From NCBI RefSeq assembly GCF_002067035.1, contig NZ_MVQB01000013.1, forward strand, positions 1-64,000: a stretch of 64,000 nucleotides of DNA, written 5' to 3'. Both the position numbers and the translations under genes were made by a program. Each line of letters begins with the position of its first letter. The stretch's first letter is position 1. Source of the DNA: Methanoregula sp. PtaB.Bin085 (GTDB lineage Archaea > Halobacteriota > Methanomicrobia > Methanomicrobiales > Methanospirillaceae). Shown piece after piece: positions 57,138-64,000 of this stretch. A model generated the notes under the pieces. That model saw only the letters and a program-made list of their open reading frames with translations, was not told the origin of the DNA and made no database searches.

Positions 57138-57230
57138 TTCCGGCTGGTTGCCCCAAGGAAAGTATTCATATTCCCAAAAATAAAACAGGACTGGAACGAT
57201 TTAATCTGGTTACCGGAGTTGATATTTTCC

Positions 57231-57422
57231 ATGCCAACCGATGACAAGAATGCACGCTGGGTCTGCCTCGAATGCCACTGGATCTATGATCCGGCCAAGG
57301 GCGACCCGAAGAACGGTATCCCGGCCGGTACCCCGTGGGAGAAAGTTCCGGACACCTGGCGTTGTCCCGAATGCAAGATCCTCAAGTGCAAGAAAGGTGT
57401 CTTTAAGCGACTTGAGGATTGA
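57231..57422 (+). CDS. Rubredoxin-like protein
   Basis: This 63-residue iron protein has both cysteine knuckles, [16 protein letters not shown] and [14 protein letters not shown], with the conserved [16 protein letters not shown] between. The second knuckle departs from the rubredoxin norm: CPECKILKC has Lys where glycine follows the last Cys and an extra cysteine four residues on. The start MPTDDKN at 57231 has GGAG upstream. It ends 20 bases inside the 3' end of the convergent pilin-like gene. Electron transfer in oxygen-stress defence is typical. Confidence 0.9.
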
Positions 57423-57990
57423 GGAAATAATTATAGAACCATTTCACGGTGTATTTTTTCTCCGGCGGGTACGTGTCGCGGGAGAGTATTTGGCCGGTTG
57501 ACGTGTCGTAGACTTCGATCCGGATGGTGTCATCCGGATGGAATGTTCCGTCGTTAAAATCTATGAATAATTCCTGGCCTTCGTACCAGCGTGACGTAGC
57601 GTAATTCACGTTTCCTCTCACTCCGAGACCCCCGATATTCTTAATACCAGTATGATCAGAATTGCAAAAAGCCTCGCCATTCAACGTGGGTAATTTTGCG
57701 TTTGAGGGGACACCGTTGACGAATAATTTTACGGAAAGGTACCGGTTGAGGTAACTTCTTTTACCGACATTCTTCAGTGTCACATAGCTGTTAAAATCCA
57801 TTTTTCCATTTTTATCATAATGGTCAATATTTACAATTTTGAAGATATCCGGAACATCATCTGCCTGTAAAATATGGATGCCCAGACACATCAGCAGGAG
57901 AATCGTCGCGAGAATGATCGTGATACTTATCATCATCACATTGCCGATAACTGACATGCCTGCGCGATCGGATTCTGGCAGCGGGGACAC
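57403..57990 (-). CDS. Archaeal type IV pilin-like protein
   Basis: This 195-residue protein starts GTG (57990) with [20 protein letters not shown], an archaeal class III signal peptide: a basic/glycine site (RAG) just before the hydrophobic helix [21 protein letters not shown]. The rest is beta-rich with [12 protein letters not shown] and [19 protein letters not shown], as in archaellin/pilin-like DUF1628 proteins. It should be processed by a PibD-type peptidase and assembled or exported. Solitary here, no pilus machinery is in the window. Confidence 0.78.
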
Positions 57991-58095
57991 ATTCCTCAGT
58001 TATATTATTGAGTATATAGCGTTTGTGAAATCCTTTCGCAAACAATATACCGGAGGATATCGGGTGTTATTGTTTCCCGAAAAATAATTTGGTTA

Positions 58096-58371
58096 TCAAA
58101 CCCTCATAATGAGTGCAAGAATCTCCCTCGCCATCTCCGGCTCCAGTACCTGCGTCAGCACGAACCCGGCCAGGATCACGAACACGCTCCAGAACACCTT
58201 CTTCATCTGCTTATTCCTGCCGATGAGCTGGATGATGGTGTCTATATCGGTGCTCATCGCTTTCCGGATCATCTTGGGCAGGAAGAGGAACAGGAGCAGG
58301 AAGATCATCGCAGCAATGGTGAACGAGAGCATGCTCCTGCCCTTCTCGGAGAGGAGAACCCACGCAGGCAC
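58096..58371 (-). CDS. Small membrane protein, last gene of the tiny-gene operon
   Basis: This 91-residue protein (GTG at 58371) has two hydrophobic stretches, SFTIAAMIFLLLFLFLP (~16-32) and VFWSVFVILAGFVLTQV, with a charged middle. The same reading frame is open further upstream to the stop at 58450-58452, where it encodes NEFGEAASEALFAGLF, but no ATG, GTG or TTG is present in frame, so either translation begins at GTG 58371 or the true N-terminus is lost by mutation. The preceding gene ends in the same frame at 58450. Confidence 0.5.
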   Translation of the reverse strand: MPAWVLLSEKGRSMLSFTIAAMIFLLLFLFLPKMIRKAMSTDIDTIIQLIGRNKQMKKVFWSVFVILAGFVLTQVLEPEMAREILALIMRV

Positions 58372-58449
58372 GGTGAATAATCCGGCAAATAATGCCTCGG
58401 AAGCAGCCTCGCCGAACTCATTGCGGATGTTGCGACGTTCAACCCGACT

Positions 58450-58935
58450 TTAGCCGCTGACAGTTGATAGCCGCTCACCCGCTCCCCCGTTGATGTCTCC
58501 TCCCCCGGGCGGATGACGGCCCGGCTCTCCCCCGGTTATCCCGGGAGATCTCACTTCTCCGGAATACCCCGGCACAACCAAAGGATCGATCACCGCCCCG
58601 TGCTGGTTGATCTCCACGAACCCCGTGCCCGCGGACCGGAAGAACCGGATGTTGCCGTAATAATCGCAGGCCCAGATCTCGCAGGACCGGCCGGGATCCG
58701 GCGGAACGCGGCTGAGGTGCGCGATGGCGGACGGGAACTGCGCGGCCATTCCTGCAGTCGTATCGAAGAGGCGCTTGGTCCGCGTCGCTTTTCCGATCGT
58801 TGTCTGGCCGGGTTCCGCGATGATGAAATCGCAGACACAGCCGTGATACCTCTTGCACAGGATCACAAACCCGCGTGCGTTCGCGTACGGCATCGCGATC
58901 TCCATCGCTTTCTCGGGCCACGGTCCGCGGTTCAC
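58450..58935 (-). CDS. Unknown conserved-looking protein of the tiny-gene operon
   Basis: This 161-residue protein begins GTG at 58935 (GTGA overlap with the preceding gene's stop). It has FVILCKRYHGCVCDFIIAEPG, AQFPSAIAHLSRVPPDPGRSCEIWACDYYGN and a low-complexity Pro/Gly C-terminus (GGEPGRHPPGGGD). Four cysteines could bind a metal or form disulfides. No family is recognised. The overlaps on its upstream side and the codon pattern favour a real gene over the other large frames on this stretch. Confidence 0.55.
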   Translation of the reverse strand: MNRGPWPEKAMEIAMPYANARGFVILCKRYHGCVCDFIIAEPGQTTIGKATRTKRLFDTTAGMAAQFPSAIAHLSRVPPDPGRSCEIWACDYYGNIRFFRSAGTGFVEINQHGAVIDPLVVPGYSGEVRSPGITGGEPGRHPPGGGDINGGAGERLSTVSG

Positions 58936-59159
58936 GATCTCACCTCCACTTTTACGCTATAGCCGGCCTGTGGGACTTTCATCCGCAGTTCGCGGCAGAT
59001 CGAGCGCGTCCGGACACTCACGTTGTAGTAGTGCCGGCCGGCTTTCTTCACAACGATTCGCACGAGTTCCTCGCCCGCCCGTTTCACTTCCTTTTGGATG
59101 ATGGACGGGATGAGGAAGAGCGGAACTTTTGGCGTGAGGACCGCTGGTCTCCGCGGCAT
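58932..59159 (-). CDS. Small basic protein of the tiny-gene operon
   Basis: This 75-residue protein starts MPRRPAVLTPK at 59159, where the ATG overlaps the stop of the 43-codon gene (TGATG). An upstream ATG at 59174 would overlap more. It is rich in Lys/Arg with KEVKRAGEELVRIVVKKAGRHY and a KVEVRS end, suggesting a nucleic-acid- or membrane-facing role. Function unknown; it fits the translational chain tightly. Confidence 0.55.
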   Translation of the reverse strand: MPRRPAVLTPKVPLFLIPSIIQKEVKRAGEELVRIVVKKAGRHYYNVSVRTRSICRELRMKVPQAGYSVKVEVRS

Positions 59160-59290
59160 CAGGAACGCCTCCATGCTTCACCGTCCGCAGGTACACGCAG
59201 GATGGTCCGGCCCTGCCGGACACATTCTGTCATGCCATGACGTTCCGGCAGGATTATCTCCGGCCCCGATTCAACAGTTTTCCTGCTCAC
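59159..59290 (-). CDS. Tiny 43-residue protein of the same operon
   Basis: A 44-codon frame begins GTG at 59290-59288 and ends with TGA at 59161-59159, which overlaps the ATG of the next gene by one base. The upstream gene stops at 59293, two bases earlier. The peptide contains GPEIILPERHGMTECV and RVPADGEAWRRS. The exact packing on both sides is the main evidence. It falls below the usual ORF length cutoff. Confidence 0.5.
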   Translation of the reverse strand: MSRKTVESGPEIILPERHGMTECVRQGRTILRVPADGEAWRRS

Positions 59291-59292
59291 GG

Positions 59293-59595
59293 CTAAAGCC
59301 TCCCCAGTCTTCGCAGGAAGACATCGGCATAATGGTTAATCCTGGTCCGCACACGTTCCGGCAGGGTGAAGGGATCGCAGGCTATGCGGAGTCCCGCTGG
59401 TCTGCGGACTCCCTCTACCTGGATGAAGTACACTTCTTCTCCCCGCAACGGCCGCTGCCCGTATTCCGGGTACCGTGCCGTCATGCAGGTTCTTTCCACG
59501 CCGGTTCTGTCGTACATTGCTGTACGCTTTTCGTTCCGGGGAGTACACAATTCCCCGGGTTGTATCGTTTTCACCATTGCAATCACACAGTCCAC
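59293..59595 (-). CDS. Unknown small protein of the tiny-gene operon
   Basis: This 100-residue frame starts with GTG (59595) or with Met of MVKTIQPGEL seven codons later. The C-terminal half GEEVYFIQVEGVRRPAGLRI and FTLPERVRTRINHYADVFLRR has ordered alternation typical of a folded domain. It stops two bases before the 43-codon gene. A competing frame (59336-59833) is richer in low-complexity residues and is rejected. Function unknown. Confidence 0.5.
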   Translation of the reverse strand: MDCVIAMVKTIQPGELCTPRNEKRTAMYDRTGVERTCMTARYPEYGQRPLRGEEVYFIQVEGVRRPAGLRIACDPFTLPERVRTRINHYADVFLRRLGRL

Positions 59596-59762
59596 ATTTT
59601 CTGCAGTTACGCGGGAGGTGAGCGGCTCCGCTCGCCTCTTTCATTCTGTAAGGACCGGCCGGCTCCGGAAAGCGGGAACGGCAGCGGTTGGGCTGCCGGG
59701 TATCGTATAGCGGGGAAAATCTCCACGCCAGCGATCCGCTTCCGCTCAGGCCGGTATCCCGG

Positions 59763-60044
59763 TCACGCAGAAATCCGCTGACACTGGAGAATCTTATGGT
59801 CCCGGCAGGGTGCAACCGCCGGGACATTCCCACAATGGCCTGCAGGGCTGTCCTTCATGGTGCGTGAAGGATCTCGGGAAAAGGTCGGGTATTCCGGCTC
59901 ACTGCCGGCAATACGGAAGCCCATCATCATGTACAGCACGATACACTCGATCACGATCACCGCGGCTATCCGTTCCGCCTCGCGGAGGGAATGGCCGAGG
60001 GCCATGATCTTTGTCGTCGTGGGGATACAGGATTCAGCAAGCAT
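59763..60044 (-). CDS. Small membrane-anchored protein, first gene of the tiny-gene operon
   Basis: This 93-residue protein (ATG 60044, or ATG 60005 giving 80 residues) has one likely membrane helix, IAAVIVIECIVLYMMMGF, after a short charged N-terminus (SLREAER). A Gly/Pro/Cys-rich tail follows. A 167-base gap to the next gene (59596-59762) includes a GAGCGG...CCGCTC hairpin at ~59619-59634, which may be a processing site. No family recognised. Confidence 0.45.
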   Translation of the reverse strand: MLAESCIPTTTKIMALGHSLREAERIAAVIVIECIVLYMMMGFRIAGSEPEYPTFSRDPSRTMKDSPAGHCGNVPAVAPCRDHKILQCQRISA

Positions 60045-60130
60045 TGTGATTATCTAAGAAAAGTGGCGATTGAATATATACTAGTTGGTCGATTATTGTT
60101 CTTGGTATTGTACATTATAAAATATTAGCA

Positions 60131-60258
60131 GCGGACCCTGTAGGAGATTGTTGTGAGTATGAGGTTACCCCCCGGTTTCTGCCGCATATTCCGGATTATG
60201 TCTGCATTGGCTGGATTGATTGAGAAACATCTTAGATTTCTGTTACTATCATCTACCG
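60131..60258 (+). repeat. Leader-element copy C (divergent copy of the A/B element)
   Basis: This ~128-base stretch shares long blocks with copies A (61468-61654) and B (63697-63883): gcggacc, gtgagt.tgaggttaccc, ccggtttctg, ctgcattggctggatt-like and agatttct.ttac.atcatctacc. It lies in the gap between the tiny-gene operon and the TPR lipoprotein, 78 bases before that gene's ATG at 60334. Pairs in the central hairpin have changed together relative to A and B (see findings). The AT-rich stretch 60280-60330 may contain the promoter. Confidence 0.7.
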
Positions 60259-60333
60259 ATCACGAGGAGTAAAAATTCTCGTTGAGCGGATAAAAACATA
60301 AAAATTATCGATAAAAGAATCAAAGAATAGGAT

Positions 60334-60714
60334 ATGAAAAGAATTGCAGGTCTTTTCCTGATACTGATATTCTTATCATTCAGCGGATGTGTCTCGCAGG
60401 ATGGGACGTCTGCTGCAATTTATCCACGGCAATTTTCCCAGAGAGTGAATGCCAGCCAGGAGGATTTCGATCGGATGGTGGAATCGGATCCAGCGAATGC
60501 ATCCGCATGGTGCCTGCGGGGGATGTACTACAACAATGCTTTTGGCCAGTATGATAAAGCGCTGGAGAATTATAACAAAGGCCTTGAACTGGATCAGGAA
60601 AGTGGTTTATGCTGGTATGCAAAGGGGATTACCCTCCGGAACATGAAACAATTCAATGAAGCAGAACTATGCCTCCGGAATGCAAAAACCTATGATCCTT
60701 CTCTCCCCCTCTGA
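60334..60714 (+). CDS. TPR-containing lipoprotein
   Basis: This 126-residue protein has the lipobox LSFSGCVS (Cys at ~19) after a short signal peptide (RIAGLFLILIFLS), so it should be membrane-anchored by a lipid on that cysteine. Residues ~48-115 form two to three TPR-like helices: NASAWCLRGMYYNNAFGQYDKA and ESGLCWYAKGITLRNMKQFNEA. TPRs mediate protein-protein contacts. It follows the leader element C by 78 bases. Its 3' end overlaps the convergent 60653-61447 gene by 62 bases, which is unusually long. Confidence 0.78.
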   Translation: MKRIAGLFLILIFLSFSGCVSQDGTSAAIYPRQFSQRVNASQEDFDRMVESDPANASAWCLRGMYYNNAFGQYDKALENYNKGLELDQESGLCWYAKGITLRNMKQFNEAELCLRNAKTYDPSLPL

Positions 60715-61447
60715 TGAACGGAATCCAGGTTTCCGTTTTGGAAAAAAAGAAAGTCCAGGTGTAATACATCGTGTTGGACCACCGTGCAAGGGTCCATGCT
60801 GGCGGCACTGCACCCGGGGGGAAATCCCCGAAATGCTGGGAATACGTGGAATAATAGTATCCGGACGGGGGCAGGATTGAATTGTCCCATGCTTCTGTAA
60901 ACGTGGTGTAATAACTCTCAGCCGTTTTTTCTTTCTGGCGGACCCACTTGGAACCATCCCACCTCATGAGATCTGCGATGACAAGAGACCACGGGCACGG
61001 GTAATTTGTCGTAGTGCCTGCCCAGTAATTTATGGCGCCGGGAATGGCTGTAGTTGCACTATAGGCATCTGCAGTGTAGATGATTACCTCCAGCGAGGAG
61101 GCAATTTTATCGTTTCCTGACGATTTGCCGGTTGCCGTTGCAGTTGCAAACTCTTTCTCAGTGGTCTGGGAGAATTGATGGTAATTCGGGATCATGGTCT
61201 TCAGTTTTGAGTATACATTTTTCTGATCCTGAGACAGATTTGACCAGAATTCCGGATTTCGCTTTTCAAGGATCTGGCTTACCGGGACCTCCTTGCCCTC
61301 CATCGTGTAAGCCCATTCCATGTATGCGTCTACTTCCGGCGATGCCGTACTTGTTGTCATCTCTGCTGATCCGGCTGGCATTATTACTGTGACTGCCAGG
61401 AAGAGCGCAAGCATGACAACCAGGGTTTTGTAGAGTTCCATTTTCAT
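60653..61447 (-). CDS. Secreted protein of unknown function
   Basis: This ~264-residue protein starts MKMELYKTLVVMLALFLAV at 61447, with AAAGGAG upstream, and has a classical signal peptide ending near AGSAEMT. The mature part contains EVDAYMEWAYTMEGKEVP and a Trp/Tyr-rich region (MRWDGSKWVRQKEKTAESYY, TWTFFFSKTETWI), suggesting a carbohydrate- or peptide-binding fold. No catalytic motif. Its last ~20 residues overlap the convergent lipoprotein gene in the other strand, so the C-terminus may be an extension by loss of the original stop. Confidence 0.65.
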   Translation of the reverse strand: MKMELYKTLVVMLALFLAVTVIMPAGSAEMTTSTASPEVDAYMEWAYTMEGKEVPVSQILEKRNPEFWSNLSQDQKNVYSKLKTMIPNYHQFSQTTEKEFATATATGKSSGNDKIASSLEVIIYTADAYSATTAIPGAINYWAGTTTNYPCPWSLVIADLMRWDGSKWVRQKEKTAESYYTTFTEAWDNSILPPSGYYYSTYSQHFGDFPPGAVPPAWTLARWSNTMYYTWTFFFSKTETWIPFIRGGEKDHRFLHSGGIVLLH

Positions 61448-61467
61448 GCTCCTTTGGCTTGTTCTCA

Positions 61468-61654
61468 ATACGCTCCGCTCGCCGGTACAGAATCATTCCG
61501 CCTTTTCAGTGAGGCGGGTATCGCAAGCGGACCGGGGAGAGGAGTTATGTGAGTGTGAGGTTACCCTCCCCGGTTTCTGCGGTGCATTCGGGAGAATGCC
61601 CGCACTGGCTGGATTCAGTGCGCGACAAATAAGATTTCTATTACAATCATCTAC
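61468..61654 (+). repeat. Leader-element copy A (187 bp)
   Basis: This 187-bp block is essentially identical to copy B (63697-63883), with one G/C difference noticed (cagtgcg versus cactgcg). It begins 20 bases upstream of the leftward secreted protein's start and ends 74 bases before a plus-strand ATG at 61728. Structural features: ACCGGGGAG...CTCCCCGGT outer arm (about 61519-61564) and an inner hairpin TGCGG(t)GCATTC-GGGA-GAATGCCCGCA with a GNRA-type loop. Flanking bases up to the ATG remain collinear with copy B. Confidence 0.85.
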
Positions 61655-61727
61655 TGGTCTGGCGACTGGTAAACCGTTATAATTAATACTATAAGCGCAG
61701 GCTTCAGTAACGTAAACTGAGGTATCC

Positions 61728-61834
61728 ATGAAGGCACTCGGAAATATATCATGATCCCGGTTGGCGCGATCATGCTCGTGTCGGGAATTTTTTTCAGAAA
61801 TTTGCAATTAATAATAGTTATTCAACCTGGCTAA
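61728..61834 (+). pseudogene. Remnant of a small signal-peptide gene downstream of copy A
   Basis: ATG AAG GCA at 61728 is in the same relation to copy A as ATG AAG GTA at 63957 is to copy B (74 bases). The frame stops after eight codons (MKALGNIS). One base removed near 61741-61745 would join it to MIPVGAIMLVSGIFFRN, a hydrophobic signal-like segment that runs to TAA at 61832-61834. It may be a frameshifted start of a lost secreted protein gene, the rest having been deleted. Confidence 0.35.
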
Positions 61835-61838
61835 CCAA

Positions 61839-62015
61839 TCACCTGTCGAAATAATACCGGATGATCCCTATGGCAATGAGGATAACCATCATCAGGCCTA
61901 GGTTCGGAAAATAATTCCTGTTGTAAACCATGACGGAGTAAAAATCGATACATGCCAGAATGATTCCGATAATGAGAAGGATATTCCATGCCATGCCTGC
62001 GTATTGGTTTTTCAT
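61839..62015 (-). CDS. Small two-helix membrane protein (58 aa)
   Basis: ATG at 62015 is preceded by gggagccct (GGGAG five bases upstream) and opens 58 codons to TGA at 61839. The peptide has two hydrophobic helices, NILLIIGIILACIDFYSVMV and LGLMMVILIAIGIIRYY, joined by YNRNYFPN, ending FDR. It is the third gene behind the serine protease on the same strand. Too short for usual ORF lists; the ribosome-binding site and clean two-helix pattern support it. No family recognised. Confidence 0.6.
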   Translation of the reverse strand: MKNQYAGMAWNILLIIGIILACIDFYSVMVYNRNYFPNLGLMMVILIAIGIIRYYFDR

Positions 62016-62083
62016 AGGGCTCCCTGTATTATCCCAATCAGTTACTATCTGCCCTTCTGGTCGAGAGTCCGTCGGAATGTCTA

Positions 62084-62554
62084 TCAGAGTACTGTATCCC
62101 GAGGTACTTCAACATGGACAATTCCCGTCAGGACAAATTTGCACGGAACGTTTGTTATATTAAACGTTCTTCCCCGTTCAGAAATACGATTATGGATCTC
62201 ATAGACAACGGTCCGGTTAACTTTCTGTGAGTCGTCTATCATCACGATGATCGAACCCTGCATATCCTTCCTGAACCCGATTACCGGTCCTTTCGGGTAA
62301 TAATACGGGCTGATATCCGTATCGGATGCATTGATGAACCGCTCCATCAGATCCGGGTCGTTGAGAAAAACCGTTCTATCCGGGTTTTCCCTTTCCAGTC
62401 CGAATGAATCAATGATCCGTTCTCCCGGAATAGTCGCCGACAGATTTGGTTTCATATCCGGGCCTTCATCTTGTTCCATCCCTGTAGGAAGAATTAATAC
62501 AAGACCAAAAACAATCCCGAGGATTAGAATTCCGGTCATTACGTATCGGTTCAT
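62084..62554 (-). CDS. Stand-alone propeptide-like membrane-anchored protein
   Basis: This 156-residue protein has an N-terminal helix (TGILILGIVFGLVLILPTG) that anchors or exports it. Residues ~82-150 (SPYYYPKGPVIGF, MQGSIIVMIDDSQKVN, EIHNRISERGRTFNITNVPCKFV) are clearly related to residues ~80-155 of the downstream-facing protease (KYYYPNGPMIGKG, MKGSIVVMINKDWVVN, EIYEKISEQGRQKGIENIPCRF). It lacks the catalytic domain, so it resembles a free propeptide or inhibitor/chaperone. A GGTGA ribosome-binding site precedes the ATG at 62554, and the protease gene ends 32 bases upstream. Confidence 0.68.
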   Translation of the reverse strand: MNRYVMTGILILGIVFGLVLILPTGMEQDEGPDMKPNLSATIPGERIIDSFGLERENPDRTVFLNDPDLMERFINASDTDISPYYYPKGPVIGFRKDMQGSIIVMIDDSQKVNRTVVYEIHNRISERGRTFNITNVPCKFVLTGIVHVEVPRDTVL

Positions 62555-62586
62555 CTGTTTTCACCGTTCTGGAAAAAATGGGGATT

Positions 62587-63675
62587 TTATCCGGTCAATG
62601 GCGTTATCCAGTTAAGATCACGCCGGATTCCCTGCACTGGTGAGAAAATGGCATATCCAGTCCCGTTTGATCGTCCTACGTGGATCCCAACCAGTACTGT
62701 CTCCCCAGTGGAATATTTCTCATACACAGGTGCTCCGCTGTCACCCGTTGCAGAAGAGTAGGTGGCGTACCATTGATTCTGAATGTATTTTCCGTAATGG
62801 TCATTCCAGACATTGGCCTGGTACACCGTGCTACCCGTTGTCAATCCCGATTCCACTCCAGACATATACAGGGTAAGTCCTGACGGATTGTCATCCCAGT
62901 AATTGAATGTCTTGTATGCAGAAGCGGATTCATACACTTTGGGATTACTCGTAACCCCACTCGTCAATTGTGTCCATGAAGAATCAGAATAGGTATTACC
63001 CAGAGTGGTTTTATAGCCGATAAAGGCGCCGCTGACGGTCGGATCCGGCTGATACACTGATGATCCTATCGATCCCATATGGCCTGTTGCGACGATGCCA
63101 CGGTTTCCGGAAGAATCCGTTGCAACAAATCCAAGCGTGGAATAATACCCAGCCATGTGAACCTTGGTTCCCCCGATTACCGGTCGTATCTGTTCGGTCC
63201 GGGTGGCTTGCGTTTCCATGAGTCCCATGGAGATAAACCTGCAGGGAATATTTTCGATGCCCTTCTGTCGTCCCTGTTCGGAAATTTTTTCGTAAATCTC
63301 CTTTAACACTGACTGATTCACGACCCAATCTTTGTTAATCATCACAACGATTGATCCTTTCATGTCAATGCCTTTACCAATCATTGGACCATTCGGATAG
63401 TAGTATTTTTGCAGTTCTTTGTCTGATTCGCTGTTTACGGCTCTCAGACTTGAATACCAAGGATCGGAATCAATTTTCCGCAAATCAGTATATGGTAATT
63501 TTTCTGACGGTACCCGGCCGAATGCAGCGAGAATGATTTCTTTCTGATATGCAGTTTCCGCGTTTTTTATCGCAGATTCCTTTGATAAATCATCACTCGC
63601 ACTCACTATCGGTACAAATATTATCGCTGCCAGCATTAGTGCCAGCAGGATAACGATTATCTTGTGTGGTTTCAT
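62587..63675 (-). CDS. Secreted trypsin-like serine protease with N-terminal propeptide
   Basis: This 362-residue protein has a signal peptide (IIVILLALMLAAIIFVPIVSA, ending ~26), a propeptide-like region (~30-160) and a chymotrypsin-fold catalytic domain (~165-362). The expected triad is visible: His in RGIVATGHMGSIGS (~198), an Asp in SDSSWTQLTSG (~232) and the nucleophile in SSATGDSGAPVYE (~312), with VGIHVGRSNGTGYAIFSP as the last strands. This is like streptogrisin/alpha-lytic enzymes, which need a propeptide to fold. AAAAGGAG lies upstream of the ATG at 63675. It heads a three-gene operon. Confidence 0.85.
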   Translation of the reverse strand: MKPHKIIVILLALMLAAIIFVPIVSASDDLSKESAIKNAETAYQKEIILAAFGRVPSEKLPYTDLRKIDSDPWYSSLRAVNSESDKELQKYYYPNGPMIGKGIDMKGSIVVMINKDWVVNQSVLKEIYEKISEQGRQKGIENIPCRFISMGLMETQATRTEQIRPVIGGTKVHMAGYYSTLGFVATDSSGNRGIVATGHMGSIGSSVYQPDPTVSGAFIGYKTTLGNTYSDSSWTQLTSGVTSNPKVYESASAYKTFNYWDDNPSGLTLYMSGVESGLTTGSTVYQANVWNDHYGKYIQNQWYATYSSATGDSGAPVYEKYSTGETVLVGIHVGRSNGTGYAIFSPVQGIRRDLNWITPLTG

Positions 63676-63696
63676 CCCTTTTCGCTCCTTTTTTCG

Positions 63697-63883
63697 ATAC
63701 GCTCCGCTCGCCGGTACAGAATCATTCCGCCTTTTCAGTGAGGCGGGTATCGCAAGCGGACCGGGGAGAGGAGTTATGTGAGTGTGAGGTTACCCTCCCC
63801 GGTTTCTGCGGTGCATTCGGGAGAATGCCCGCACTGGCTGGATTCACTGCGCGACAAATAAGATTTCTATTACAATCATCTAC
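63697..63883 (+). repeat. Leader-element copy B (187 bp)
   Basis: This block matches copy A with a single visible base difference. It starts 22 bases upstream of the leftward protease's ATG (63675) and ends 74 bases before the plus-strand ATG at 63957. The same hairpins are present (ACCGGGGAG/CTCCCCGGT and the GNRA hairpin). Its AT-rich right flank (attacaatcatc, ttgtaatagaaacc) may contain promoter elements for the rightward gene. Confidence 0.85.
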
Positions 63884-63956
63884 CAGTCCATCGATCGGTA
63901 GATAGTTGTAATAGAAACCTTAAGTGCCTGGCTTTGAGACGCAATCCGTGATATCC

Positions 63957-64000
63957 ATGAAGGTATCCGGAATATCCCTCATTTTCCTGGTATGCGCGTT
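63957..64000 (+). CDS. 5' end of a probable secreted protein gene (cut by window edge)
   Basis: ATG at 63957 begins a frame MKVSGISLIFLVCA that is open to the window end. A short basic start followed by a hydrophobic run and a cysteine suggests a signal peptide, perhaps of a lipoprotein. It occupies the same position relative to leader copy B as the TPR lipoprotein does to copy C. Nothing more can be said from 14 residues. Confidence 0.5.
   Translation, partial: MKVSGISLIFLVCA

Follow-up and report, generated by a model that had tools for sequence, protein, structure and literature searches.

The described system closest in fold to the locus reported here is the archaeal Hjc protein (PDB entries 1gef and 2wcw), with which the product of one of its genes, P5, shares the core fold and small size. 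P5 differs from Hjc in that it is only 9% identical to it, lacks the glutamate of the E-x-K motif and belongs to a multi-copy, membrane-linked module. In the PD-(D/E)XK superfamily, loss of the metal-binding glutamate leads to loss of nuclease activity. A further PD-(D/E)XK family, UPF0102/YraN (3fov), resembles P5 through a weak profile match over the core (E 0.026; for Hjc, the profile match is E 0.69) but departs from it in catalytic motif and context. P6 has two hydrophobic helices in common with the SieB superinfection exclusion protein; however, the match to Pfam SieB is only E 0.12, at 12.5 bits far below the cut-off of 26, and full-length P6 has four to five transmembrane (TM) segments. 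Finally, archaeal dark-matter islands, which are blocks of unannotated genes, have been reported to be enriched in integrated elements and defence genes (PMC6393860); the main text of that report contains neither Methanoregula nor Methanomicrobi-, and we did not find the module described there, nor did we find a description of it in the literature on Methanoregula and Methanomicrobiales. We propose that Methanomicrobiales have an undescribed accessory module in multiple copies and that the locus is one of these, shortened but largely under selection; our confidence in this explanation is about evenly balanced.

We analyzed a window of 64,000 nucleotides that opens contig NZ_MVQB01000013.1 of Methanoregula sp. 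PtaB.Bin085 (contig C13 of genome G000) and compared it with 60 related genomes, many of which are fragmented assemblies. The original prediction had claimed six leftward open reading frames (ORFs), and all six are present where it had placed them, their lengths in codons being those given in residues in Table 1 (P4 has 80 codons if counted from the first ATG). The three junctions that it had quoted, namely a 2-nt gap between P2 and P3, TGATG at P3/P4 and GTGA at P4/P5, are exact, but its statement that all of the frames are tightly joined holds for three of the five junctions and fails for P1-P2 (167 nt) and P5-P6 (78 nt). It had also correctly noted TM helices at both ends (one in P1 and two in P6) and a basic protein (P4), whereas the several Cys-rich proteins that it had described are mildly so at most, with 5, 4, 1, 1, 5, and 0 Cys residues in P1 to P6. 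The start of P4 is the ATG at 59159 and that of P5 the GTG at 58935; the Shine-Dalgarno-like sequences GGAGG and GGAGGTGA precede P4 and P5, and homologues begin at the same residues, those of P4 sharing the start MPRR. The GTG of P6 has no Shine-Dalgarno-like signal, and alignment to full-length proteins extends the homology ~20 residues upstream of it, which makes this start doubtful; no start codon lies between the P5 stop and the P6 GTG.

Table 1. Features of the locus, in window coordinates
Feature	Coordinates	Strand	Description
P1	59763..60044	-	93 aa with a single TM helix; opens the module
P2	59293..59595	-	100-aa ORF; may be a fast-diverging counterpart of the ORF preceding P4 in relatives
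P3	59159..59290	-	43-aa ORF; without support as a conserved gene
P4	58932..59159	-	75-aa basic protein, pI 11
P5	58450..58935	-	161 aa, Hjc-fold PD-(D/E)XK protein (predicted) without the metal-binding Glu
P6	58096..58371	-	91 aa; corresponds to the C-terminal half of a membrane protein of ~196 aa
In-frame upstream remnant of P6, NIRNEFGEAASEALFAGLFT	58372..58431	-	aligns with ..HYFWFGEVAMAAVLAGTFA.. of full-length proteins
Candidate archaeal TATA box, TATATATT	60073..60080	-	~30 nt upstream of the P1 ATG; proposed from sequence and position only
Lineage-specific island, part in the window	57991..64000	.	whole island extends from ~57991 to ~65340 in contig coordinates and is flanked by the pilin gene and a TPR gene of 321 aa

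When 20-kb regions of congeners were compared side by side, a full module with the order P1-variable ORF-P4-P5-[cargo site]-c1-c6-c8-P6 emerged, in which c1 has 167 aa, c6 has 54 aa with one TM segment, c8 has ~158 aa and full-length P6 has ~196 aa. Among 80 c1 loci from named genomes, titled Methanoregula, Methanolinea, Methanoculleus or unclassified Methanomicrobiales, 64 have room downstream and P6 occurs in 28 of these; c6, c8 and P6 follow in that order at 26 of the 28 c1 loci that have P6. The distance from P4/P5 to c1 varies from 0.1 to 9.4 kb. The copy in the window lacks c1, c6, c8 and the first half of P6 and keeps P1, P4, P5 and the second half of P6. In a sister genome (G002), P6 is cut at the same point, ~0.4 kb after P5, and c1, c6 and c8 are likewise missing; because the same short form is present in both, the truncation appears to be older than the split of the two species. 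We had also considered the tail of P5 to be a read-through artefact of the deletion and dropped this idea, the P5 tail of the sister genome being of similar length. The anatomy of the module is well supported; its function we infer.

A search for homologues in relatives had been proposed with the original prediction, which named a lack of conservation as the result that would speak against it; conservation was found. P5 and P6 have matches in 33 and 30 of the 60 related genomes, respectively, all confined to the genus, and P4 in 43, with weak matches in five other genera; P4 homologues adjoin P5 in many congeners. P1 homologues are present in four congeners (G002, G008, G019 and G021) and, by profile, at locus L104. 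At two loci of G002, in G021 and at L104, P4 follows ~0.8 kb downstream of the P1 homologue; in G008 and G019 the homologue is close to c8/P6. The gene order P1, P4, P5, P6 is the same in other Methanoregula species. Compared with the sister genome, pN/pS was 0.46 for P1, 0.36 for P4, 0.46 for P5 and 0.40 for P6 (the last from 46 codons), with 95% intervals below 0.75, values that are rough, with dS ~0.9-1.3 and synonymous sites close to saturation, and that could mostly reflect the sister lineage. We conclude that P1, P4, P5 and P6 are conserved and, as judged against the sister species, under purifying selection. P2 had no clear homologue in the 60 genomes; its weak collinear match to a 154-aa ORF before P4 at loci L052 and L053 (30%, E 0.2-0.6) is not significant as evidence that P2 is a homologue of the ORF preceding P4. 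P3 gave zero tblastn matches in 16 related regions and no Pfam or PHROG match. The codon scores of P1, P4, P5 and P6 favor their own frame, and those of P2 and P3 are the best of six frames yet weak. That the six are mostly spurious ORFs of high-GC DNA is thus compatible with P2 and P3, which combine weak codon scores with the lack of clear homologues, but is refuted for the conserved and selected P1, P4, P5 and P6, and we regard this explanation as highly improbable.

The flank of the locus has genes that by eye encode a dehydrogenase, an aldolase, a glycosyltransferase, a DUF99 protein and rubredoxin, and then the pilin gene (Pfam Pilin_N). This flank is collinear in congeners through the pilin gene, after which a TPR gene of 321-324 aa comes next. 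Because the G000 orthologue of the TPR gene of G005, G017, G018 and G020 is at contig position 65416, G000 alone has ~7.3 kb, with P1-P6 inside it, separating pilin from TPR. The G+C content is 59-63% over P2-P5 versus 43-51% in the remainder of the island. No tRNA gene that could have served as an integration site was found in the window, and an Rfam scan returned nothing relevant. We also note several local features of this region. An intergenic repeat of ~130 nt occurs ahead of leftward island genes at 60130-60261, 61526-61659 and 63755-63888, the first copy being 76% identical to the others, and was not found elsewhere in the genome; in a longer form, the stretches at 61442-61846 and 63670-64077 are 81% identical. 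The leftward neighbours at 62084-62554 and 62587-63675 have ~80 residues in common at 45% identity, reflecting a local duplication within the island. In the flank, the rubredoxin-like gene (57219-57422) and the pilin gene (57403-57990) overlap tail to tail by 20 nt, and this pair, adjoining the DUF99-like gene, is conserved in congeners.

Copies of the module elsewhere show recent duplication and exchangeable content. In G020, the copies L052 and L053 are 97.7% identical over 1736 bp around P4-P5, 95.5% identical over c1 and ~80% identical from there through P6; their outer ends are sharp, and no terminal repeats or target duplication were seen there by eye. In one of the two, P5 and c1 are separated by an additional 1.94 kb, which encodes an IrrE-type peptidase (Peptidase_M78, with RmrA-like PADLOC matches) and an ORF that is PIN-like by eye. 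The gap between P5 and c1 in other copies holds CARF, GIY-YIG, PIN or DUF4062 genes. Further, of four full-length HsdM genes present in five genomes, three are no more than 10 kb away from a module locus (p ~0.004), an exploratory association based on four genes and on the c1 loci listed; PIN genes were not enriched near module loci in the five genomes. The island location, the duplication and the cargo together underlie our reading of the module as accessory. Against this reading stands the distribution of c1, which is present in 54 of 60 genomes and 11 of 13 genera and is highly conserved; a purely accessory element would not usually occur in nearly all genomes of an order. The module could instead be an order-specific cell-biology complex of the envelope, or of the chromosome at the membrane, with many paralogues and no part in conflict or mobility. 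Outside the genus, c1 is often preceded by a P5-like gene and, at several loci, followed by a small TM protein, which also speaks for this view. However, c1 varies from 1 to 11 copies per genome where present and no copy was found in two nearly complete genomes, G016 (Methanoregula, one contig, 94%) and G037 (another genus, 98%), and variable cargo, recent duplication and an island location likewise speak against such a complex. We see a cell-biology complex as an unlikely alternative to an accessory module.

Searches with the module genes yielded no significant match in Pfam, NCBIfam, PHROGs or PADLOC. With PADLOC at E 0.01, none was found for P1, P2, P4, P5, P6, c1, c8 or full-length P6, the two marginal matches being at E 0.014 and 0.07. 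The module, which is multi-copy in Methanomicrobiales methanogens, matches no family in the four sequence libraries searched. The original prediction that none of the genes belongs to a known family is thus borne out by the four libraries (for P3, by Pfam and PHROGs) but has to be modified for P5, which has the Hjc fold in its predicted structure. The structure model of c1 is confident (pLDDT 91) and has no significant match in the PDB or in a viral structure library; resemblances to TBP-like and tunnel-enzyme-like proteins had Z below 7 and were set aside as common arrangements, and a c1 profile found nothing among PDB sequences.

An origin from a virus or plasmid, in which P4-P5 would serve the replication of an integrated replicon and c1-P6 its virion or its maintenance, would account for a module that is multi-copy, located in islands and duplicated within a genome. 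It could also draw on a large ORF between P4 and c1 in L060 and L074 that is primase-polymerase-like by eye: it has 1024 aa in L074 (4876-7950), is split into two ORFs in L060 (4874-7960), directly follows a P4-like gene and has a weak PHROG helicase match. This ORF is, however, missing from most copies and has no Pfam match. Further, no relative of c1 or P6 was found in IMG/VR (2.9 million viral contigs), none of c1 or P5 in a phage collection, and c1 was not found in a plasmid collection; the PHROGs search and the viral structure comparison of c1 point the same way, and 0 of 13 tyrosine integrases (PF00589) in five genomes lay within 20 kb of module loci. We judge an integrated replicon to be rather improbable. 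Of the origins that had been put forward for the six genes, a virus is accordingly not supported, whereas the remnant of a mobile element is supported by a truncated copy inside an island absent from relatives and by full copies that duplicate within a genome, and the membrane-linked small system suits the full module with its three or four membrane proteins. A toxin-type cassette found no support for the six genes themselves. A membrane toxin-antitoxin or superinfection-exclusion cassette would explain the small genes, the two TM helices of P6 and its weak matches to SieB and to a 2TM effector (PADLOC, E 0.07), but these matches are far below cut-offs, the module has at least six conserved genes and no type II toxin-antitoxin domain was found in the core genes with Pfam and NCBIfam. 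The toxin-type genes, such as the peptidase and PIN-like pair, are optional cargo and not core, and we strongly doubt this explanation.

We next consider P5. Its AlphaFold2 model has a pLDDT of ~90 or more over residues 10-110, and a structure search returned mostly Hjc entries at the top ranks, the best aligning with Z 10.1 and an rmsd of 3.0 over 103 residues (VIA-align; best Foldseek E 0.004), which places P5 with the PD-(D/E)XK core fold. HMM alignment to 1gef and 3fov showed that P5 does not carry the full set of metal-binding catalytic residues of Hjc (D, E-x-K). Position 49, the site of the Hjc glutamate, is R in 16, Q in 4, K in 2 and neutral in 4 of 26 sequences and acidic in none. 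Asp-36 is retained in 14 of the 26 and Glu-86 is invariant, and these residues may form a displaced active site. We conclude that P5 is, according to its model, an Hjc-fold protein that is predicted to have lost nuclease activity.

Under our preferred reading of an accessory module, P5, its catalytic glutamate lost and the site now mostly occupied by a basic residue, would bind branched or double-stranded DNA without cutting it, probably with the basic P4 as its partner. P1, c6 and P6 would anchor the complex at the membrane, and c1 and c8 may be its soluble executing or structural parts. The module would most likely act against foreign DNA at the membrane or in the upkeep of such DNA there, and perhaps it is a membrane-anchored DNA-binding conflict system. 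The copy in the window, which is without c1, c6 and c8, probably retains a DNA-binding/membrane or interfering role only, or is decaying. More speculatively, and with a chance that we put well short of even, the module may represent a new membrane-tethered class in which an inactivated Hjc-fold protein captures DNA structures and signals to c1 and the membrane partners, the gap between P5 and c1 docks exchangeable conflict genes and stripped copies such as that in the window serve as regulators or decoys.

Accessory conflict and mobile modules in archaeal islands are already known as a broad kind; what is new, as far as we have searched, is the module itself. A patch of tiny unexplained ORFs thereby becomes one copy of a gene module that can be defined and counted and that is common throughout a methanogen order. 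With its presence in nearly every genome of the order, c1 is a good structural target. Overall, the combination of an inactivated Hjc-fold protein, a membrane-linked module and a site for defence-type cargo offers an idea that may be tested through DNA binding, localisation and the entry of viruses and plasmids.
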